Assembly (NCBI RefSeq): GCF_022750545.1
Contig: NZ_PUIC01000014.1
Span: 62,001-126,000 of the forward strand
Source of the DNA: Caulobacter sp. CCUG 60055
GTDB taxonomy: Bacteria; Pseudomonadota; Alphaproteobacteria; Caulobacterales; Caulobacteraceae
Direction of reading: 5' to 3'
Length of the DNA: 64,000 bases
The notes beneath the pieces are model-generated. The model did no database searches and was not told the DNA's origin. It was given only the letters and a program-made list of their open reading frames with translations. Below are positions 19,077 to 30,014 of this stretch, one piece after another. The translations under genes were made by a program, and so were the position numbers. Position 1 is the first letter of the stretch; every line of letters begins with the position of its first letter.

Positions 19077-20732
<1,656 letters not shown>

Positions 20733-20742
20733 GTCCAGCCGT

Positions 20743-22326
20743 TCAAACGTCGATGGAGGGCGGAGCCGCAAGGCTCCGCCCTTTTTCTTTGGCTAGATGA
20801 GGCGGCATCGTCGAGATCGTGCGAGCCGCCGCGCCATAGGTCGAACACCAGATCAGCACCTCCGTGGCCCCTGCGATCAAGGCGTTCAACCATGCTAGGC
20901 CCCCAGATGAACGGCGCGAGACGGCGAAGGCGAGATGCGTCTGCTCCTCGGCGTCCACCGCGGCGATCGCCGCAGCGAGCGCCTCGTCGCGACCAGCCAG
21001 CCACGCGACCTGTCCCGTCAAATGCCCATGCACCGTTCGCTCGACCGCCTCGGTGCACACCAAAATGGCGTCACGTCCCAAGGCCGCCGCGAACAGGCCC
21101 AGCGCCAGGCCGCCGGCGGCCCAGAAGCCGAGGGTGCGACATGGCCTGACGTCGCGTTCCTTCATCAGGCGCGCGAATGTCGAACGGTGCTCTTGTTCGT
21201 GGGCTAGGGTCTCCGTCAGGAAGTCCGCCAGGTCCGGCGCTCGAAAGCGAGCGAGCCAGAGTTGCCCCCGATAGATCCGGATGGCCCCGACCTCCCCCGC
21301 GTGATTGACGCGGAGCAGACGAGCGATCTCTCGCCGGTGATCGCCGCCATGCGCCTGCGATGCCGGGACCGGCCCCATCTCAAGCTCTCGCGCGCGTACA
21401 GCGGGGCCGGCCGGTCTCAGCGCGCCCCGTAGCGGCAGCGTCGCCGGCGTGCGGATGTTCCAGGCCAGGCCAAGCAACGCCAGAAGCTGGATGAACCGAA
21501 ATCCCGGATCGAACTGGCCGGGATAGAGCCCCATTCGCGCCGAGCCGGGGAAGGCGTGATGATTGTTGTGCCAGGCCTCGCCCATGGTCGGGATCGCCGC
21601 CCAGGGCACGTCGTGAGCCTGGACGCCGGCGCCGTCGACCAGCCACGACTGCGGCCCCTGGCGATGGGCGAGGCGGCCGACCAGCCAATGGCCGTTGACC
21701 GAGACGGCGACACGCACGCACACGCCCCACACGACCCAGGACCACCCCCCCAGCGCGTAGAGCGCCAGGGCGACCGGCGCCTGCTGAAGCACCCAAGTCC
21801 GCTCAAGCAAGCGATAGAACCGATCGTCGCCGACGCCAGGTCCTGGGGCGAAGATCGGCGGCCGGGCCAGGACCAGCCTGCAATGCAAGCACCACCACCA
21901 GTCACGCCAGACCGGCGCGGCGTGGGCCAGCGCCGGGTGGCAGCGCGGCTGGCGCTGGGCCCAATCGCGCGTGTCGTGGACCCGCATCATCCACAATGGC
22001 CCGCTCATTCCGACCGCCGTCCCGATCCAGACCAGGACGTATTCGAGCCAGCGCGGACAGTCGAAACTGCGGTGGATCAACCGGCGATGAAAGCCGACGG
22101 AGTGACCGAGCAGCAAGACCGCGCCCGTGGCGGCGAGGAAGACCGTCAAGGCGCTCCAACTGAACGTCAGCGCCCCGAGGACCAGGGCCGCCGCGACCAC
22201 CGCGCCGTTCCATGAAGAATGGACGGGGTCCCATCGCATCACCCCCTCAAGCGGATCGGCGTCGGGACCAATCCGCAGCGAATTTACCGCGTGGGGATCT
22301 TCGACGTGGCGGACCAACGGCTCCAT
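20743..22326 (-). CDS. Fatty-acid desaturase fused to COQ7-type di-iron hydroxylase
   Basis: A single 527-residue frame with two di-iron modules. Residues about 40-300 are a membrane acyl-lipid/acyl-CoA desaturase: hydrophobic helices, first His box HSVGFHRRLIH (75-85), a modified second box MMRVHDTRDWAQRQPRCH (113-130) and third box EAWHNNHHAFP (250-260). Residues about 330-500 are a COQ7/demethoxyubiquinone hydroxylase-like ferritin fold with all likely ligands: LLRVNHAGEVGAI (Glu345), LAHEQEH (Glu377, His380), TEAVERTVHGH (Glu426 or Glu429) and AEEQTHLAF (Glu461, His464). The linker (about 300-330) is Pro/Ala-rich. The join has no stop codon or obvious frameshift. Divergent from an ArsR-type gene, with a dyad between them. 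The first module should desaturate fatty acyl chains; the second hydroxylates quinones in known relatives, but here its role is unknown. Its last codons overlap the groEL terminator. Confidence 0.85.
   Translation of the reverse strand: MEPLVRHVEDPHAVNSLRIGPDADPLEGVMRWDPVHSSWNGAVVAAALVLGALTFSWSALTVFLAATGAVLLLGHSVGFHRRLIHRSFDCPRWLEYVLVWIGTAVGMSGPLWMMRVHDTRDWAQRQPRCHPALAHAAPVWRDWWWCLHCRLVLARPPIFAPGPGVGDDRFYRLLERTWVLQQAPVALALYALGGWSWVVWGVCVRVAVSVNGHWLVGRLAHRQGPQSWLVDGAGVQAHDVPWAAIPTMGEAWHNNHHAFPGSARMGLYPGQFDPGFRFIQLLALLGLAWNIRTPATLPLRGALRPAGPAVRARELEMGPVPASQAHGGDHRREIARLLRVNHAGEVGAIRIYRGQLWLARFRAPDLADFLTETLAHEQEHRSTFARLMKERDVRPCRTLGFWAAGGLALGLFAAALGRDAILVCTEAVERTVHGHLTGQVAWLAGRDEALAAAIAAVDAEEQTHLAFAVSRRSSGGLAWLNALIAGATEVLIWCSTYGAAARTISTMPPHLAKEKGRSLAAPPSIDV
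20758..20790 (+). terminator. Rho-independent terminator of groESL
   Basis: A 10-bp stem GGGCGGAGCC/GGCTCCGCCC with a GCAA tetraloop, then CTTTTTCTTT. It lies inside the 3' coding end of the convergent desaturase-COQ7 gene. Confidence 0.9.
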
Positions 22327-22357
22327 CGACGGCTCCTCATGAGGCGATGTCGTAATT

Positions 22358-22389
22358 TCGCAATTAATTTATTTCTTAAATTCTTGCGA
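22358..22389. promoter_or_regulatory. Candidate operator between desaturase-COQ7 and ArsR-type regulator
   Basis: An AT-rich imperfect dyad: TCGCAATTAATTT at 22358-22370 and AAATTCTTGCGA at 22378-22389, 7 bases apart. It sits in the 82-bp gap between the divergent starts, where a winged-helix regulator would control both promoters. Confidence 0.5.
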
Positions 22390-22408
22390 GAGCGGAGGCA
22401 AGAAATTA

Positions 22409-22801
22409 ATGAAATCCTTAAGCGTGCGCGCTCAACAAGTCCCGGAAAGCCTTTTCATGCAACGCGTCTTCGAAGCCCTCGCCTCCGTGGTTCGACGCAA
22501 GATCCTGGCCTATCTGGCCCATGCCGAACTGACGGCGGGCGAGATCGCCGCCCGCTTCGAAATCTCCAAGCCGGCGGTGTCGCAGCATCTGGGCGTGCTG
22601 GAGGCGGCCGGGCTGGTGCGCAGCGAAAAGCGCGGCCAGTACGTCTATTACAGCCTGACGCCGGACAACCTGATCAACACCCTCAACGACTTCGCCCAGG
22701 AGGTCTGCCCGGTCAGCAAGGTCCTCAAGGCCGAAAGCGCGACCATCGCCGCGGATCAGGTCGAACCGGATTCGAAACGGGGTTCCTCCAGCCGAACGTG
22801 A
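22409..22801 (+). CDS. ArsR/SmtB-family winged-helix transcriptional regulator
   Basis: A 130-residue repressor-type DNA-binding protein. The winged helix spans about residues 17-90: MQRVFEALASVVRRKILAYL, recognition helix ISKPAVSQHLGVLEAAGLV, and wing SEKRGQYVYYSL. It lacks the ELCVCDL metal site of ArsR/SmtB sensors, so it resembles the SdpR-like non-metal branch; two cysteines are not in a known metal motif. The start at 22409 has GGAGG upstream, though the later ATG at 22457 is possible. It is divergent from the desaturase-COQ7 gene and probably controls it and itself. Confidence 0.85.
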   Translation: MKSLSVRAQQVPESLFMQRVFEALASVVRRKILAYLAHAELTAGEIAARFEISKPAVSQHLGVLEAAGLVRSEKRGQYVYYSLTPDNLINTLNDFAQEVCPVSKVLKAESATIAADQVEPDSKRGSSSRT

Positions 22802-22813
22802 GCCAGAGACGTA

Positions 22814-22841
22814 ACGCCGCCCGGCCTTCGCCGGGCGGCGT
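22814..22841. terminator. Bidirectional hairpin between arsR-type gene and rtcB
   Basis: Perfect 11-bp arms ACGCCGCCCGG and CCGGGCGGCGT with loop CCTTCG, between convergent stop codons. No T-run on either side. Confidence 0.65.
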
Positions 22842-22847
22842 CCGCAT

Positions 22848-24065
22848 TCAGCCCTTCACGCACACCACCTGGCGCAGGGTGTGGACGATATCCACCAGGT
22901 CCGCCTGGGCGGCCATCACGGCGTCGATGTCCTTGTAGGCCATCGGCGTTTCGTCGATCACCTCGGCGTCCTTGCGGCATTCGACGCCCTCGGTGGCGCG
23001 GACGTGGTCCTCCACCGTGAAGCGCCGCTTGGCCTCGTTGCGGCTCATCGCCCGGCCGGCGCCGTGCGAGCAGGTGCAGAACGAGTCCGCGTTCCCCTTG
23101 CCGCGCACGATGAACGAGCGGGCGCCCATCGAGCCGGGGATGATGCCCAGTTCGCCCTCGCCGGCCCGCACCGCCCCCTTGCGGGTGACGAACACCGTCT
23201 TGCCGAAGTGATGCTCCCGCGCGACGTAGTTGTGGTGGCAGTTCACCGCGGTCTCCGTCGTCGCCAGGTCCGGGAACGCCTGACGCAGCACGCCCAGCAC
23301 CTGGTCCATCATCACCTCGCGGTTGGCGAGGGCGTAGGTCTGCGCCCAGTTCACCGCCTCGATGTAGTCGGTGAAGCCCTCGCTGCCCTGCGGCAGGTAG
23401 GCGAGGTCTTGGTCCGGCAGGTTGATGAACCAGCGCCGCATGTCGCGCTTGGCCAGTTCGACGAAGTAGGAGCCGAACCGGTTGCCCACCCCGCGCGAGC
23501 CGGAGTGCAGCATCACCCAAAGGCGGCCTTCTTCATCCAGGCAAAGCTCGATGAAGTGGTTGCCGGTCCCCAGGGTGCCCAGGTGGCCGAAGCCGCGCTG
23601 GTGCGCCGCCTTGGGGTGCTTGGCGATCACCGCTTCATAGCCCGGCTTCAGCACGGCCCACTTGTCGGCCGCCAGGGCCGGCGGCTCGGCCGCCCAGGCG
23701 CCCTTGTCGTTGCGCCCGCCGTTGTCGGTCCGGCCATGCGGCACCGCCGCCTCGATGGCGGACCGCAGCCCCGCCAGCGAATCCGGCAGATGCTCGGCCC
23801 GGATCGAGGTCCGCACCGCCATCATGCCGCAGCCGATGTCGACGCCGACCGCCGCCGGGATGATCGCCCCGACGGTCGGGATGACCGAGCCGACGGTGGC
23901 GCCCATGCCCCAGTGCACGTCGGGCATCACCGCCACGTGCTTGTGGATGAACGGCAGGCTGGCGACGTTGCGCAGCTGCTTCATGGCCGACTCTTCGATC
24001 GGCACGCCCCGGGTCCAGGCCTTGATCGGCGCGCCCGGGCTTTCGATGATTTCGAACCCGCCCAT
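22848..24065 (-). CDS. rtcB: RNA-splicing ligase RtcB
   Basis: A 405-residue GTP- and Mn2+-dependent RNA ligase that joins 2',3'-cyclic phosphate or 3'-phosphate ends to 5'-OH ends. Metal-site and active-site segments are present: VMPDVHWGMGATVG, VGVDIGCGMMAV (Asp and Cys ligands), TGNHFIEL, MLHSGSRGVG, and the guanylated His in CSHGAGRAMSRNEAKRRF. The start ATG at 24065 follows AAGGAGAACC; in-frame upstream codons run through two hairpins and look like leader RNA. No rtcA or RtcR (sigma-54 activator) is nearby, so control differs from the E. coli type. Confidence 0.95.
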   Translation of the reverse strand: MGGFEIIESPGAPIKAWTRGVPIEESAMKQLRNVASLPFIHKHVAVMPDVHWGMGATVGSVIPTVGAIIPAAVGVDIGCGMMAVRTSIRAEHLPDSLAGLRSAIEAAVPHGRTDNGGRNDKGAWAAEPPALAADKWAVLKPGYEAVIAKHPKAAHQRGFGHLGTLGTGNHFIELCLDEEGRLWVMLHSGSRGVGNRFGSYFVELAKRDMRRWFINLPDQDLAYLPQGSEGFTDYIEAVNWAQTYALANREVMMDQVLGVLRQAFPDLATTETAVNCHHNYVAREHHFGKTVFVTRKGAVRAGEGELGIIPGSMGARSFIVRGKGNADSFCTCSHGAGRAMSRNEAKRRFTVEDHVRATEGVECRKDAEVIDETPMAYKDIDAVMAAQADLVDIVHTLRQVVCVKG

Positions 24066-24079
24066 ACGGGTTCTCCTTT

Positions 24080-24160
24080 CCTTGCCGCCCCTCCTGGCGT
24101 CGCGGTCGGCAAGGTCTTCGCACAAATGAAGAACCCCTCCGGCCGGGCCAGGAGGGGTTC
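24080..24160 (-). promoter_or_regulatory. Structured 5' leader of rtcB (two hairpins)
   Basis: Read along the minus strand, a perfect 10-bp hairpin (arms GAACCCCTCC/GGAGGGGTTC, 24131-24160) is followed by a second (CCTTGCCG/CGGCAAGG, 24080-24114) ending just before the rtcB ribosome site. The CCTCC and GGAGG arms could mask ribosome-binding sequences. It may be an attenuator or a structured target of RNA processing; no known riboswitch was recognised. Confidence 0.5.
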
Positions 24161-24186
24161 CTTCGTACATCCCAAGTCCTAGGACT

Positions 24187-24282
24187 TCAGGCCGTTCCCC
24201 CTCCCATGCGCGCGCGCTCACCGACGACCGGGCGGCCGAAGGTGTTGAACGCGGGCATATTGGGCTGGGCTTTGTGCGCCAT
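24187..24282 (-). CDS. Possible 31-residue small protein upstream of rtcB
   Basis: A short frame with ATG at 24282 preceded by AAGGATGAGGACC, a good ribosome site. The product begins MAHKAQPNMPAFNTFGRP and ends in Gly-Gly-Gly-Thr-Ala; it is basic, with no membrane segment. Its stop overlaps a perfect 14-bp palindrome (AAGTCCTAGGACTT, 24174-24187), after which the rtcB leader begins. It could be a leader peptide or an independent small protein; no family recognised. Confidence 0.35.
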   Translation of the reverse strand: MAHKAQPNMPAFNTFGRPVVGERARMGGGTA

Positions 24283-24397
24283 GGTCCTCATCCTTGGGAG
24301 CGTCGCGGATAACACGGGTCGCCGCGCGAGCGCCATCCCGCCACGCGGAAAAGTCGCAAGCGCCGACCCAGAAGCCACGGAGAGTGGCGAAAAAGCC

Positions 24398-25009
24398 TCA
24401 GTAGCCGACCGTGAACCGCCGGCGGCGGCGCTGGGGCGTCTCCAGTTCGTCGACCAGGGCGACGGCGTAGTCCTCGAACGAGATCGAGCTCTTGCCGTCC
24501 GCCGCGGTCAGCAGCTGGTCGTCGCCGAGGCGGAAGACGCCGGTGCGCTCGCCGGGAACGAACAGGGCCGAGGGCGACAGGAAGGTCCAGTCGAGATCCG
24601 GCTCGGCGCGCAGGGCTTCCAGGAAAGCCGCCCCGCCCAGGGCCTCCGGCTTCCATTCGGCGTGGAAGAACGGCTGGTCGACCAGCCGCTGGCCGGGCGC
24701 GACCTCCAGGCTGCCGGCGCCGCCGACCACCAGATAGCGAGGAACGCCGGCGTCCTTGACCGCGCCGATCAGCACCGCCGGATCGCTCTGCAGGAACTTC
24801 ACGGCGCTGACCGCCGCGTCGACGCCCTCGAGCGCCCGCGCCAGGGCGGCGCGGTCGCCGGCGTCGGCGCGGACGACGTCGAGGTCGGGCCGGGCGGCGA
24901 GCGCGCCGTCGCGCCGCACCACGGCGCGCACGCGATGGCCGCGCCGCAACAGTTCCTCGACGATGCGCGAGCCGACGTTTCCGGTCGCGCCGATCACGGC
25001 GACGTACAT
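24398..25009 (-). CDS. NAD(P)H-binding oxidoreductase (NmrA/YwnB-like)
   Basis: A 203-residue Rossmann-fold protein of the atypical short-chain dehydrogenase group. The dinucleotide motif is VIGATGNVGSRIVEEL at the N-terminus, then DAAVSAV, YLVVGGAGSLEV and the family's closing SISFEDYAVALVDELE. The Tyr-x3-Lys catalytic pair of classical SDRs is absent, as expected for NmrA/YwnB relatives. It is divergent from an HxlR-type regulator about 150 bp away, an arrangement common for redox-responsive oxidoreductase/HxlR pairs, so that regulator may control it. Substrate unknown. Confidence 0.88.
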   Translation of the reverse strand: MYVAVIGATGNVGSRIVEELLRRGHRVRAVVRRDGALAARPDLDVVRADAGDRAALARALEGVDAAVSAVKFLQSDPAVLIGAVKDAGVPRYLVVGGAGSLEVAPGQRLVDQPFFHAEWKPEALGGAAFLEALRAEPDLDWTFLSPSALFVPGERTGVFRLGDDQLLTAADGKSSISFEDYAVALVDELETPQRRRRRFTVGY

Positions 25010-25162
25010 GGCGGGGTCCTTTCCCGTTGGTCTCGGTTTGAGAGCCGGTATAGATCAGGAACCGATGTGAAGCCTCGGCGGCCTCGCCGCAAGACGGGTT
25101 TTCGGCGTCACCAGGTGACGCCGGGGTAACCGGCCGCCGTCCGATCGCGCCGAAGGACCGTC

Positions 25163-25531
25163 ATGCCGACCACTCGCCCGCCCGCCCCGTCCCCCTGCCC
25201 GATCCGCGACGTACTGGACCGCATCGGCGACCAGTGGAGCTTCCTGATCCTGCAGAACCTCGACGGCGGCGCGCTGCGGTTCACCCAGCTCAAGCGGGCC
25301 GTCGGCGACATCTCGCAGCGCATGCTGGCCCAGACCCTGCGGCGGCTGGAGCAGGACGGCCTGGTCTCGCGCACGGTGTTCCCCACCGCCCCGCCGCGGG
25401 TCGACTACGCCCTGCCCCCGCTCGGCCGCTCGCTGATGCAGCCGCTGGGGGCGCTGGTCGCCTGGGCCGAGGCCAGCCAGGCGCAGGTGCGCGCCGCGCG
25501 GGCGGCCTATCAGCGGCCCGAGGCGGCCTGA
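25163..25531 (+). CDS. HxlR-family winged-helix regulator
   Basis: A 122-residue MarR-like regulator of the HxlR family. The signature [19 protein letters not shown] is at residues 12-30; the conserved Cys12 is the residue that senses electrophiles or oxidants in characterised relatives (HypR, YodB). The helix-turn-helix includes [30 protein letters not shown] and the wing follows. It lies opposite the NAD(P)-binding oxidoreductase, probably its target (inference). Confidence 0.9.
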
Positions 25532-25640
25532 AGCCGCCTCGTCCCGTTTCGGGAAACCCTTCTGAAAGAACCATGATCTACCGAAGGCAGGCGGACGAGT
25601 CGCATCGCCCGCGCCGACGCGCCTTCGAGGGACCCTTGCG

Positions 25641-26045
25641 ATGCAGCCTGACGTCCAGGCTTTCCTTCACGCCGAGACCGGCGTGACCACCTGGGTGGTC
25701 GCCGACCCGGCCACCGGCCTGTGCGCCATCATCGACCCGGTGCTCGACGCCGGCGGGGCCACGGCCTCGGCCGACGCCCTGATCGCCGCCATCCGCGAGC
25801 GCGACTTCGGGCCGACCTGGATCCTGGAGACCCGCGCCGACGGCCCCTCGGCCGCCGCCCACGTCAAGTACGAGACCGGCGCCTCGGTGGCCGGCGCGGC
25901 CGGACCGGGCCGCGAACCGGATTCGACGCTGTCCGGCGGCGAGACCCTGCCGCTGGGCGCCCTGGCCATCGCCGTGGTCAACGTGCCGGGCCGCGGCCTG
26001 GCCTACGCCATCGGCGAGCGGACCTTCGCGCCGCCCGAGGCCTGA
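25641..26045 (+). CDS. Truncated MBL-fold (ETHE1-like) protein lacking the metal motif
   Basis: A 134-residue protein that matches the N-terminal half of ETHE1/persulfide-dioxygenase-like metallo-beta-lactamase-fold proteins: TTWVVADPATGLCAIIDPVLD, ASADALIAAIRERDFGPTWILET and then SAAAHVKYETGAS. At the place where the family has THAHADHLSAA, this protein reads TRADGPSAAA, so the metal ligands His-x-His-x-Asp-His are lost. It also stops at about half the usual length (roughly 280). The start ATG follows GAGGGACCC. It is either a decaying gene or a non-enzymatic domain; the clean reading frame and normal codon use favour a kept, repurposed fold. Confidence 0.6.
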   Translation: MQPDVQAFLHAETGVTTWVVADPATGLCAIIDPVLDAGGATASADALIAAIRERDFGPTWILETRADGPSAAAHVKYETGASVAGAAGPGREPDSTLSGGETLPLGALAIAVVNVPGRGLAYAIGERTFAPPEA

Positions 26046-26057
26046 GCCGTCGCCGCC

Positions 26058-27857
26058 TCAGCGCCCGCCGGCCATGCGGTCGCGCGCGCGGCGGACGCGG
26101 CCGCCCAGGGCGTCGGGACGGTTGAAGTCCTTGCGGAACTCGTCGCGCTTCTCGTGGATCGAGGCGATCACCAGCCCCATCGGGATGCCGATGTCGACCA
26201 GCACCGCCTCGGAAAGCTGCAGCGAGGCCTCGATGGTCTCGGGCACGGCGTCGGTGGCCCCAAGTTCGTACAACGCCTTGGCGTGACGGGCGTCACGCGC
26301 GCGGGCGACGATGGTCAGGTCCGGCCGCTCGGCCCGCGCCGTGGCCACCACCGCCTCGACGCCCTCGGGCGAATCCATGGTCACCACCAGGGCCGGCGCG
26401 TCGCCCAGGCCGCAGCGGCGCAGGAACTCGGTCCGCGAGGCGTCGCCGTAGAAGATGACGGTCCCGGCCCGGCGCCCCTGGTCCACCAGCCTGGGGTCGC
26501 GCTCGGCCGCCACCCACGGGATGTCGTGCCGCGACAGCATCTCGCCGACCAGGCGGCCGACGCGGCCATAGCCGACCACCAGCACCTTGGGCCGCTCCCC
26601 CTCGATCGCGGACGCCCTCGGGTCGGTCGCCGGCGCCGGCGCGGCCTCGGGCGGCCCGGCCTTCTTCGACAGCCGCTTGCCGGCGGCCGCCAGGATCGGG
26701 ATGGCGAACATGGTCAGGGTGGCCGAGACCAGCAGCGGCTCGCCCAGGCGGCGGGGCACCACGCCCTCGCCCATGGCCGCGTCGAGGATGACGAAGGCGA
26801 ACTCGCCGCCGGCGGCCAGCACCAGGGCCGTCTCCAGGGCGCGGCCGCTCTTCATGCCGAACAGGCGGCCAAGGCCGAACACCACCACGGCCTTCAGCGC
26901 CAGCAGACCGACCGCCGTCCCCAGCACCAGCACCGGGTGGCGGGCCAGGATCGACAGGTCGAGCCCGATGCCCACCGACAGGAACAGCAGGCCGAGCAGC
27001 AGCCCCTTGAACGGCTCGATGGTCACTTCCACCTCGTGCCGGTACTCGGTCTCGGCCAGCAGCAGGCCGGCGACGAAGGCGCCCAGCGCCATCGACAGGC
27101 CGATGACCGCGCTGACCAGGCCGGCGCCGATGACCACCAGCAGGCAGGCGGCCAGGAACAGCTCCTCGCTCTTGGCCCGCGCCACCGACTTCAGCATCGG
27201 CCGCAGGACCAGCCGGCCCAGCACGACGATGGCCAAAAGGCCAAGGGCGGCGGGCGCGAAGGTCAGCAGCAGCTTGGGGTCGAACCCCTCGCCCTGACGG
27301 CCCAGCACCGCCACGGTGATCAGGATCGGGGCGACGGCGAGGTCCTGGAACAGCAGCACCGAGAAGGCGGCCCGGCCGGCCTCGGAATGCAGCCGCTTCT
27401 GTTCGGCCAGCACCGGCATGACGATGGCGGTCGACGACAGGGACAGGGCCGCGCCCACCGCCAGGGCCGCCGCCAGCGGCTGGCCCAGCAGGCCGGCGGC
27501 CACGGCGATCACCGCCGCGCACAGGCTGACCTGCAGCGCGCCCAGGCCGAACACCATCCGGCGCATCAGGCGCAGCCGCTCCCATGACAGCTCCAGCCCG
27601 ATCATGAACAGCAGGAAGACCACGCCGAACTCGGCGATCTGGCCGATCTCGGCCGGGTTGTCGACGGTGAAGGCGCCCAGCCAGGGCGCGACGCCGGTGA
27701 AGCTGCCCAGGCCGTAGGGTCCCAGCGCCACGCCGGCGCCCAGGAAACCGAGAATGGGATTGACCTTCAGCCGCTGGAACAGCGGCACCACCACGCCGGC
27801 GGTGGCGAGGAACAGCACGAGGTCCTTGTAGTCGCCTGCGCCGACGCCGTGCTCCAT
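26058..27857 (-). CDS. Kef-type K+/H+ antiporter with RCK domain
   Basis: A 599-residue inner-membrane protein of the CPA2 family. The first about 385 residues hold 11-13 membrane helices (NPILGFLGAGVALGPYGLG, AEFGVVFLLFMIGLELS, SLSSTAIVMPVLAE and the ion-site region SVLLFQDLAVAPIL). Residues about 425-545 are the cytoplasmic RCK/TrkA-N regulatory domain (KVLVVGYGRVGRLVGEML, then GDASRTEFLRRCG). It resembles KefB/KefC; glutathione gating is possible but no KefF/KefG ancillary subunit is adjacent. Convergent with the MBL remnant (12 bp) and downstream of a small XRE regulator. Confidence 0.92.
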   Translation of the reverse strand: MEHGVGAGDYKDLVLFLATAGVVVPLFQRLKVNPILGFLGAGVALGPYGLGSFTGVAPWLGAFTVDNPAEIGQIAEFGVVFLLFMIGLELSWERLRLMRRMVFGLGALQVSLCAAVIAVAAGLLGQPLAAALAVGAALSLSSTAIVMPVLAEQKRLHSEAGRAAFSVLLFQDLAVAPILITVAVLGRQGEGFDPKLLLTFAPAALGLLAIVVLGRLVLRPMLKSVARAKSEELFLAACLLVVIGAGLVSAVIGLSMALGAFVAGLLLAETEYRHEVEVTIEPFKGLLLGLLFLSVGIGLDLSILARHPVLVLGTAVGLLALKAVVVFGLGRLFGMKSGRALETALVLAAGGEFAFVILDAAMGEGVVPRRLGEPLLVSATLTMFAIPILAAAGKRLSKKAGPPEAAPAPATDPRASAIEGERPKVLVVGYGRVGRLVGEMLSRHDIPWVAAERDPRLVDQGRRAGTVIFYGDASRTEFLRRCGLGDAPALVVTMDSPEGVEAVVATARAERPDLTIVARARDARHAKALYELGATDAVPETIEASLQLSEAVLVDIGIPMGLVIASIHEKRDEFRKDFNRPDALGGRVRRARDRMAGGR

Positions 27858-27905
27858 CGATCCCCTCTTCCTCCGCCGCTCGCCCCGGGGCCCTTGCGTC
27901 GCGGC

Positions 27906-28160
27906 TCAGTCCGCTCCCGCCGGCTGGCGCAACCGCACGCCCGCGCCACTATCCCGGTCGGCGGCGATCAGTTCGACCCCCGCCCCCTCCAGCGCCTCGA
28001 CCAGCAGGCGCTCGGTGGCGCGATGCAGGTCGTGGCGTTCCGTCTCGAAGTCGCGCACGGTGCTGCGCGAGACGCTGGCGCGGTCCGCCAGAGCCTCCTG
28101 CGTCCAGGCCAGCAGGCCGCGCGCCGCCCGGCATTGCGCCGGTGACAAGATCTTGATCAT
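27906..28160 (-). CDS. Small XRE-family helix-turn-helix regulator
   Basis: An 84-residue protein with a Cro/C1-type helix-turn-helix at about residues 6-60 (LSPAQCRAARGLLAWTQEALADRASVSRSTVRDFE). The tail is short with no ligand domain. The ATG at 28160 fits the family N-terminus; an earlier ATG at 28193 is also in frame. It lies between two Kef-type antiporter genes, on the same strand as one and divergent from the other, so it may control both. Confidence 0.8.
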   Translation of the reverse strand: MIKILSPAQCRAARGLLAWTQEALADRASVSRSTVRDFETERHDLHRATERLLVEALEGAGVELIAADRDSGAGVRLRQPAGAD

Positions 28161-28285
28161 GCCGGGATGGCCTTTTTGATCAATATCACCCATATTGGTT
28201 GAAGTATCGACCGAAATGCGCCGAGGTCAAGCGAACCCCGCCCCATCCAACCCATTATTCCTGGAAAGGCTCCCAGAAGGCCGGC

Positions 28286-29950
28286 ATGCCCCACGAAACC
28301 CCGCTGATCGCCACCATCGTCGCCGGCCTGTGCCTGGCATTCGTCTTCGGGGCCGTGGCCAACCGGTTCAAGGCCCCGCCCTTGGTCGGCTATCTGCTGG
28401 CGGGCATCCTGGTCGGGCCGTTCACGCCGGGCTACGTCGCCGACCAGAAGCTGGCGCCCGAGCTGGCCGAGATCGGCGTCATCCTGCTGATGTTCGGGGT
28501 CGGCCTGCACTTCTCGCTCAAGGACCTGTTGTCGGTGCGCAAGATCGCCGTGCCGGGGGCGGTGGTGCAGATGGCGGCGGCCACGGTGATGGGCATGGGT
28601 CTGGGCTGGCTGCTGGGCTGGCCGCCCGGCGCGGGGCTGGTGTTCGGCCTGGCCCTGTCGGTGGCCTCCACCGTGGTGCTGCTCAAGGCCCTGCAGGAGC
28701 GACGGCTGGTCGAGACCCAGCAGGGCAAGATCGCCGTCGGCTGGCTGATCGTCGAGGACCTGGCCATGGTGCTGGCCCTGGTGCTGCTGCCGGCGCTTTC
28801 GGGCCTTCTCGGCGGCAAGGGGCCGAACGGCGAGGCCGCCGCCGGCATGAGCGGCGGCCAGATCGCCGCCGCCCTGGGCCTGACCCTCGGCAAGGTCGCC
28901 GCCTTCGTCGCCCTGATGCTGGTGGTCGGCCGGCGGGTGATCCCCTGGGTGCTGCACCGCATCGCCCACACCGGCTCGCGCGAGCTGTTCCGCCTGGCGG
29001 TGCTGGCCATCGCCCTGGGCGTGGCCTTCGGCTCGGCGTCGCTGTTCGGCGTCTCCTTCGCCCTGGGCGCCTTCTTCGCCGGCATGATGCTGGGCGAGTC
29101 CGAGCTCAGCCATCAGGCGGCCCAGGACACCCTGCCGCTGCGCGACGCCTTCGCCGTGCTGTTCTTCGTCTCCATCGGCATGCTGTTCGACCCGACCATC
29201 CTGGTCCGCGCGCCGCTGGCGGTGCTGGGGACGGTGCTGATCATCACCCTGGGCAAGTCGCTGGCGGCCATGGCCATCGTGCTGGCCTTCCGACGGCCGA
29301 CCTCGGTGGCCCTGACCATCTCGGCCAGCCTGGCCCAGATCGGCGAGTTCTCGTTCATCCTGGCCAGCCTCGGCGTGGCGCTGGGCCTGCTGCCGACCGA
29401 GGGCCGCGACCTGATCCTGGCTGGGGCGATCCTGTCGATCCTGCTCAACCCGCTGATGTTCGCCGCCCTGGGGCGGGTGCATAGCCGGGTGCAGGCCAAG
29501 CGGGGCGTCGCCGAGCCCAAGGCGGAGGCCGCCCACGTGGTGCTGGTCGGCTTCGGCCGCGTCGGCCGGCTGGTCGGCGAGGCCCTGCACGGCCGCCGGC
29601 CGCTGACGGTGGTGGAAGAGCGGGACGGCGAGGCCGAGGCGCTGCGCGAGCAGGGCTACGACGCCGTGGCGGGCAACGCCGCCCAGCCCGAGACCCTGGC
29701 CCTGGCCCGGCTGGACCGCGCCGACCGGCTGCTGGTGGCCATCCCCAACGCCTTCGAGGCCGGGCAGATCATCGAGCAGGCGCGCGCCGCCAATCCCGGG
29801 CTCGACATCGTCGCCCGCGCCCACAGCGACGCCGAGGTCGAGCACCTCACCGCCATGGGCGCGAACTGCATCATCATGGGCGAGCGCGAGATCGCCAACG
29901 GCATGATCCGCCGGGCGCTGGAAGGCCCCAAGGGCGCCGCCGGCCACTAG
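28286..29950 (+). CDS. YbaL-type cation:proton antiporter with RCK domain
   Basis: A 554-residue inner-membrane CPA2 antiporter. The membrane half (residues about 1-395) includes PPLVGYLLAGILVGPFTPG, EIGVILLMFGVGLHFS, ALSVASTVVLLKAL and the ion-site region GWLIVEDLAMVLAL, which match YbaL (RosB) more than KefC. The C-terminal RCK_N domain (about 415-540: VVLVGFGRVGRLVGEAL, then GNAAQPETL) would bind a nucleotide. The ATG at 28286 is chosen because the membrane domain begins there. Divergent from the XRE regulator. Confidence 0.9.
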   Translation: MPHETPLIATIVAGLCLAFVFGAVANRFKAPPLVGYLLAGILVGPFTPGYVADQKLAPELAEIGVILLMFGVGLHFSLKDLLSVRKIAVPGAVVQMAAATVMGMGLGWLLGWPPGAGLVFGLALSVASTVVLLKALQERRLVETQQGKIAVGWLIVEDLAMVLALVLLPALSGLLGGKGPNGEAAAGMSGGQIAAALGLTLGKVAAFVALMLVVGRRVIPWVLHRIAHTGSRELFRLAVLAIALGVAFGSASLFGVSFALGAFFAGMMLGESELSHQAAQDTLPLRDAFAVLFFVSIGMLFDPTILVRAPLAVLGTVLIITLGKSLAAMAIVLAFRRPTSVALTISASLAQIGEFSFILASLGVALGLLPTEGRDLILAGAILSILLNPLMFAALGRVHSRVQAKRGVAEPKAEAAHVVLVGFGRVGRLVGEALHGRRPLTVVEERDGEAEALREQGYDAVAGNAAQPETLALARLDRADRLLVAIPNAFEAGQIIEQARAANPGLDIVARAHSDAEVEHLTAMGANCIIMGEREIANGMIRRALEGPKGAAGH

Positions 29951-30014
29951 CCGGCGGGCCCTGGACGTAACGTCCACTTGCGCTCGGCCCCTTTCGACGC
30001 CTATTGACGCGCCC

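Follow-up and report, generated by a model that had tools for sequence, protein, structure and literature searches.

A probable ribosome-mediated transcription attenuator in the leader of rtcB from Caulobacter sp. CCUG 60055, predicted by computation

We know of no account of RtcB induction in bacteria outside the RtcR-bearing species, and, judged by titles and the beginnings of abstracts, none of the open-licence papers listed for rtcB, PA5471.1 or Hen1 describes the rtcB leader treated here. In E. coli, rtcBA is controlled by RtcR and sigma-54 such that RNA damage turns on RNA repair, as stated in the accessible part of PMC12606134. What, then, controls the rtcB gene of Caulobacter sp. CCUG 60055, which is located in the 64,000-nucleotide stretch of DNA analyzed here (the window)? 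A preliminary description of this stretch had pointed out that no RtcR gene is near. This holds for the whole genome, in which RtcR (PF06956) was not found while the E. coli control was detected. On computational grounds, we consider it likely that the region preceding the gene functions as a ribosome-mediated transcription attenuator that turns rtcB on when translation stalls.

Parts of the rtcB leader

The features of the locus are compiled in Table 1. Relatives of the encoded RNA ligase are present in the PDB, and the protein scores below the curated cut-off of the model for release-factor-linked RtcB (TIGR03073; 137.8 vs. 271.8 bits). Matches to rtcB occur in 48 of 149 genomes of the family (E<=0.001), three of which (G032, G098, G100) contain a distant relative only, and the gene is sporadic in the class (25/385 genomes at 1e-60).

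Table 1. Features of the rtcB locus, given as window positions
Feature	Position	Strand	Basis
rtcB, RNA ligase of 405 aa	22848..24065	-	PF01139 RtcB, E 2e-134
Start-codon hairpin GAACCCG-TATGGG-CGGGTTC, 7-bp stem, rtcB ATG in loop	24054..24073	-	shuffled flanks, covariation
rtcB leader, ~250 bases	24066-24314	-	promoter-like site, uORF, alternative hairpins
Shine-Dalgarno sequence of rtcB, AAGGAG	24073..24078	-	sequence
Second hairpin CCTTGCCG..CGGCAAGG, loop with AGGAGGGG	24080..24114	-	fold, sequence
GCCAGGAGGGG in second hairpin, complementary to terminator 5' arm	24088-24098	-	
T-rich tail of terminator-like hairpin	24122-24133	-	sequence
Terminator-like hairpin (hairpin 1)	24128..24161	-	fold, ~ -25 kcal/mol
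Terminator 5' arm CCCCTCCTGGC, including CCCCTCC	24147-24157	-	sequence
P2 hairpin, palindrome AAGTCCTAGGACTT, just past uORF stop, within antiterminator stem	24174..24187	-	
31-codon uORF MAHKAQPNMPAFNTFGRPVVGERARMGGGTA, preceded by ribosome site GAGGA	24187..24282	-	reading frame, sequence
Antiterminator block GGGAGGGG, 3' end of uORF	24198..24205	-	pairs with terminator 5' arm in masked folds
P1 hairpin inside uORF, CGGCC gccc GGTCG plus flanks	24220..24243	-	codon-order shuffles, f2 covariation
-10-like TGTTAT upstream of uORF	24309..24314	-	inferred promoter

The 31-codon frame with its ribosome site, which the preliminary description had read from the DNA, was recovered as such, and so was the perfect 14-bp palindrome at its stop, which has one base in common with the stop codon. 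The two consecutive hairpins that had been described are likewise present, but CCTCC, claimed for the arms of both, is found on the sense strand in hairpin 1 only, hairpin 2 carrying its complement. The leader thus contains a short ORF with a ribosome site ahead of a terminator, behind a putative promoter. TGTTATCC, TGTAATCG or TGCTATCC stand, by eye, at the place equivalent to the -10-like hexamer in many relatives, and one relative of family f2 (L128) has TTGACG-17-CATACG at the promoter position, also by eye; a sigma-70 consensus scan gave no site at the leader. The intrinsic terminator preceding the structural gene is a predicted hairpin with a weak tail, a trait of the Caulobacteraceae leaders, the U run being TTCTTCATTTGT in the window and, weaker still, TTTCTTGTATCC in leaders of the Brevundimonas type.

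Distribution of the leader and its exchange with RtcR

Leader DNA matches were obtained in 28 of the 149 family genomes, that of CCUG 60055 included, several of them short and not located before rtcB. We therefore worked from the rtcB genes themselves. Upstream regions gathered by searches in the family, the class and the order amounted to 123 after removal of duplicates. In 86 of these, a script recognized a terminator closely preceded by the end of a uORF. Four were judged spurious, such that 82 leaders were kept, all of them with an ORF by way of selection. They are related and not independent, and comprise 33 leaders from Caulobacteraceae, seven from the Caulobacteraceae genus numbered g14, 17, 11, five and five from the numbered families f2, f174, f175 and f176, respectively, and four from three distant families (f124 and f155 are further labels of this kind). 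The open uORF has 21-52, mostly 28-32, codons in these 82 of the 123 distinct upstream regions. In the figures given below for P1, P2, the third element and glutamine, the uORF stops of two of the 82 leaders (L068, L072) are set 8 bases early. Terminator and uORF were present in all 12 records from Caulobacter and Brevundimonas (L206-L217), some named records being the same genomes as others in the sample.

The preliminary description had named a lack of conservation or covariation in relatives as grounds for refutation, and this outcome did not materialize: conservation was evident, and covariation of the attenuator stems above shuffles was found in f2 but not in Caulobacteraceae. The arm pairs of the terminator are kept in 99.7% of cells in the 33 Caulobacteraceae leaders. 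In the f2 alignment (A3), nine of 25 pairs have changed on both sides, the score exceeds that of all 500 shuffles, and P1 covaries. In the Caulobacteraceae alignment (A2), pairing as good as that observed was attained by 203 of 500 shuffles and as good a score by 235 of 500; with so little variation in CCCCTCC of the 5' arm, covariation is uninformative there. RNAalifold applied to the whole alignment (A1) yielded mainly the terminator because the hairpins are misaligned. In divergent leaders, uORF block and 5' arm change together (g14, L148, L092, L074), the matching blocks being AGGGCTG/CAGCCCT and GGCTGCG/CGCAGCC in g14, GGAAGG/CCTTCC in L148 and GGGAGGGTG/CACCCTCCC in L092. uORF tails pair modestly better with their own arms than with those of other leaders (z -2.06, 111/5000 permutations as good), the modesty of the effect being due to GGAGGG:CCCTCC being common to the leaders.

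P1 folds more stably than codon-order shuffles on average (mean z -1.92 in 82 leaders; p<=0.05 in 42/82), with a p of 0.47 for the window's own leader. For P2 the mean z is -1.63, with z<-1 in 59 of 82 leaders and -1.4 in the window. The third element, AGGAGGGG of the second hairpin, shows complementarity above shuffles to the 5' arm in 17/17 f2 and 16/33 Caulobacteraceae leaders, and to the 3' arm in five of ten f174 leaders. Taken overall, a protector pairing between 5'UTR and uORF tail was no stronger than in shuffles, with mean z values of 0.11 (Caulobacteraceae), -0.78 (f2) and -1.29 (f175).

Conservation of the uORF peptide is weak: among 181 codons differing by a single base, 129 encode another residue (pN/pS 0.76), the median NG86 dN/dS is 0.67, and the conserved GGAGG is read in a different frame in two f174 leaders (L107, L113) compared to most Caulobacteraceae. 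It would thus seem that pairing and the act of translation are conserved here, more than the peptide. Attenuators of the trp and his type consist of a leader ORF, a pause-like hairpin, an antiterminator and a terminator. The rtcB leader has the same parts, but neither a single-amino-acid run nor a cluster of cognate codons was apparent in the composition of 60 deduplicated uORF starts, and there is a mild excess of glutamine only, which is raised in codons 2-13 (54/720 vs. 22/820, i.e., 7.5% vs. 2.7%, p 1.6e-5) relative to a background of the window's genes only.

RtcR and the leader exclude each other across the order. RtcR was detected in 11 of 298 genomes, a sample assumed to contain all of the rtcB genomes. 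The rtcB sample includes ten of the 11, each with RtcR situated within ~3 kb of an rtcB. The leader is missing from all ten RtcR-linked loci (L099, L100, L101, L102, L105, L115, L116, L121, L124, L131), L099 featuring a chance terminator plus an ORF that does not switch. On the other hand, terminator and uORF precede rtcB at 60 of 61 sampled loci without adjacent RtcR (16/16 in Caulobacteraceae and 44/45 in others, the exception being L112), a count that includes four leaders lying beyond an extra ORF and two initially cut short and excludes the unreadable L151. Counted without regard to kinship, the exclusion yields a Fisher p of 2.4e-11. In genome G603, which has rtcB twice, copy L105 is accompanied by RtcR and lacks the leader, and copy L144 carries the leader. 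Such a clean exchange suggests two regulators for one problem. As far as the accessible part of the E. coli work describes it, the RtcR/sigma-54 system resembles the proposed leader function in that RNA repair comes on upon RNA damage; it differs in that the genome of CCUG 60055 lacks a detectable RtcR and that RtcR-linked loci lack the leader.

Apart from this, halves resembling tRNAs, or tRNA genes, were seen by eye upstream of a number of rtcB genes from Alphaproteobacteria, both RtcR-linked and other (L084, L085, L086, L087, L097, L100, L105, L115, L116, L121, L124). Many of them carry inserts ending in GGCGAATGCC..GGGACTACAT, and one YrlA (Y RNA-like) match is present in L097. These are probably Y-RNA/tRNA-mimic arrays near rtc operons.

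Predicted folds and the position of the ribosome

CCCCTCC in the 5' arm has two possible partners, namely the 3' arm of the terminator and block GGGAGGGG at the end of the uORF, the latter pairing giving the antiterminator. In minimum-energy folds computed with the ribosome footprint masked, antiterminator and terminator are mutually exclusive, and a ribosome at the end of the uORF blocks the antiterminator. The antiterminator formed in 74 of the 82 leaders when a stalled ribosome was placed at codon 6, in 64 at codon 9 and in 67 at codon 12. It appeared in 34/82 without a ribosome, and the difference to the 74/82 at codon 6 speaks for a dependence on stalling. With the ribosome at the stop codon, 9/82 leaders had the antiterminator and 82/82 the terminator, a control less telling than it seems as this mask covers the block itself. 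With codon-shuffled uORFs, the fractions forming the antiterminator were 0.31 (stall at codon 6), 0.28 (codon 9) and 0.25 (codon 12), which shows just that the block is placed within the uORF because shuffling destroys it too; the terminator forms in 0.99 of codon-shuffled leaders as well. According to these counts, the predicted signal is a stall, the absence of translation being ambiguous.

For the window's own leader, a stall at codon 10 before synthesis of the 3' arm resulted in an antiterminator of eight pairs enclosing P2 (-23.4 kcal/mol, local), and a ribosome at the stop codon resulted in the terminator (-25.4 kcal/mol). The antiterminator was present with stalls at codons 6, 9 and 10 and absent, in the masked folds, when the stall was at codon 12 or no ribosome was placed, so that rtcB might not be induced by blocking initiation. 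As the terminator still prevails when the whole leader is folded with the ribosome stalled, the switch must be kinetic. A strict switch test was passed by one of 40 upstream regions of genes in the window, that of rtcB, and by 68/123 rtcB upstream regions vs. 2/246 block-shuffled leaders. Of 79 named upstream regions, 16 passed, 11 of them within records L206-L217, and none came from records titled Myxococc-, Acidobacteri- or Lysobacter.

On the attenuator model, transcription would start just before the uORF, and P1 might serve as a pause site. A ribosome completing the uORF would cover GGGAGGGG and bases past the stop, CCCCTCC would pair with GGAGGGG, and the resulting terminator would keep rtcB off. 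A stall early in the uORF, be it caused by a cleaved or uncharged tRNA, by damaged rRNA or by a ribosome-targeting drug or toxin, would leave GGGAGGGG free for pairing with CCCCTCC around P2, the terminator would be blocked and rtcB transcribed. If true, breaks in tRNA and rRNA would, by way of the ribosomes they stall, switch on the very ligase that mends them, and the leader would be a concrete circuit for RtcB induction without RtcR.

An RNA of the riboswitch type that binds a ligand or senses temperature independently of uORF translation appears very unlikely to us. Several conserved hairpins, including one at the start codon of rtcB, would be in line with such an element. Against it, the alternative pairing shifts with the position of the ribosome in the folds, and an ORF accompanies all 82 leaders (by script selection) despite diverged sequence; conservation across clades lies, by eye, on the pairing blocks and not on an unpaired core. 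Furthermore, the leader has no match in Rfam, a scan of positions 20000-30000 at E<=1 returning a single sub-threshold hit at 20679-20790.

The attenuator finds a counterpart in Pseudomonas aeruginosa, in which, according to the accessible parts of two reports, leader peptide PA5471.1 attenuates armZ (PA5471), the product of which is termed RtcB-like: full translation leads to the terminator, early stop codons or deletion lead to armZ expression, and armZ is induced by drugs that target the ribosome and also when the CCA enzyme is lost (PMC12057347, PMC13041342). Gln-3 and Phe-4 of the peptide matter in the sensing of tRNA defects, as stated in the accessible part of PMC13041342. As far as described there, both systems combine a short ORF, a terminator competing with an antiterminator and an RtcB-like gene downstream. 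They differ in bacterial class, sequence and effector, ArmZ being an anti-repressor of MexZ. We take ArmZ to be of the release-factor-linked type (TIGR03073). The two systems are likened by their described logic. By this analogy, the rtcB leader is predicted to work like PA5471.1-armZ, with the same logic in a different sequence, clade and effector.

The rtcB start codon and related leaders elsewhere

A further hairpin encloses the rtcB start codon. It is stronger than shuffled flanks (p<=0.05) in 21/33 Caulobacteraceae, 10/14 f174 and 4/7 g14 leaders (35/54 together) and absent from attenuator-bearing f2 (0/17), f175 (0/5), f124 (0/2) and f155 (0/1). Among 69 rtcB genes grouped as attenuator-free it occurs in two (RtcR-linked, 0/5; named other, 1/41; other, 1/23), the latter two groups including some leader carriers, e.g., L120, L130 and L219. 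Stem changes are compensating (GAACCC/GGGTTC, GAAGCC/GGCTTC, ATCCGC/GCGGAT, AACCGG/CCGGTT), and the wobble base of Gly-3 and base -4 are Watson-Crick partners in 18 of the 32 distinct sequences, compared to a mean of 10.0 after shuffling (3/5000 as high). As most of the Caulobacteraceae sampled have the start codon of rtcB within this covarying hairpin, there may be a translational layer in addition, and the hairpin may represent a second, translational lock.

The preliminary description had envisaged a control loop in the form of a translational switch or of a leader cut and sealed by RtcB. The structured leader with a genuine small ORF as a control element has good support from conservation, f2 covariation and its mutual exclusion with RtcR. 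The main level of switching, though, is most likely that of transcription, through the position of a ribosome on the uORF, and not that of translation. That translation of rtcB is gated without premature termination, by Shine-Dalgarno-like and anti-Shine-Dalgarno-like segments together with the start-codon hairpin, is hardly probable: the 35/54 leaders with this hairpin, its Gly-3 wobble covariation and the complementarity of the AGGAGGGG loop to the terminator 5' arm would fit such gating, yet the families without the hairpin (f2, f175, f124, f155) retain the attenuator, the best-kept part is the terminator arms, and the start-codon hairpin can be an additional layer. As to cutting and sealing of the leader by RtcB, we found nothing pointing to it. 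It is conceivable, at long odds, that the two elements form a two-level monitor of RNA damage, in which the attenuator senses stalls and the start-codon hairpin is a nuclease bait resealed by RtcB. Equally speculative is the idea that AUG in a loop of ~4-8 bases would mimic an anticodon stem-loop, the rtcB mRNA being translated only while repair keeps up.

Covariance model R1 was run on the 149 family genomes. With E<=2.7e-11 defined as strong, it gave 34 strong matches, 33 of which precede rtcB and match by construction, being the loci from which the model was built. The single new one (G012, L019) precedes an ORF of 61 aa without Pfam match. Nine of many weaker matches were examined. At L183, L185 and L188, a leader-like plan (uORF with ..VWEG.., antiterminator, terminator) stands before a gene for a LysE-type translocator (PF01810, E 1.4e-22, tested in L183), with the antiterminator forming at three of three stall positions in L185 and L188 and at two of three in L183. 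At L184, a leader precedes hen1 (PF12623, E 1e-100), which belongs to the second RNA-repair operon of bacteria. The occurrence of similar leaders at genes for a LysE-type exporter, and possibly at hen1, hints at a regulon for translation distress that extends beyond rtcB. As an independent test hen1 was discarded, given that the leader is present at one of 14 hen1 loci only (L200 being seen over ~150 bases) and the switch fails the strict test, and L186, L187, L189, L190 and L191 were dismissed as they look like ordinary terminators.

Could uORF and hairpin 1 be a separate short gene or small RNA with a terminator of its own, rtcB being regulated separately? The uORF, the terminator and the promoter-like site would suffice for a complete small transcript, the G012 match and three weaker ones are not located before rtcB, and another ORF intervenes between terminator and rtcB in L103, L104, L108 and L109. 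We regard this as improbable in view of the plan preceding 60/61 RtcR-free and 0/10 RtcR-linked rtcB loci of the order; in addition, the peptide is weakly kept, and CCCCTCC is paired in the terminated RNA.

Two minor observations concern neighboring genes. The extra ORF in the four f174 loci just named has ~80 codons (by eye), and its position between attenuator and rtcB means that a second product may be co-controlled. Lastly, a gene for a small HTH-like protein (..ERGWMSRLAE..VDRSSVSRWFAGLPVPGP.., named by eye) is situated directly upstream of rtcB in L063-L065 and L067 and of hen1 in L194, L197 and L199, and its product is a possible third regulator of RNA-repair genes.
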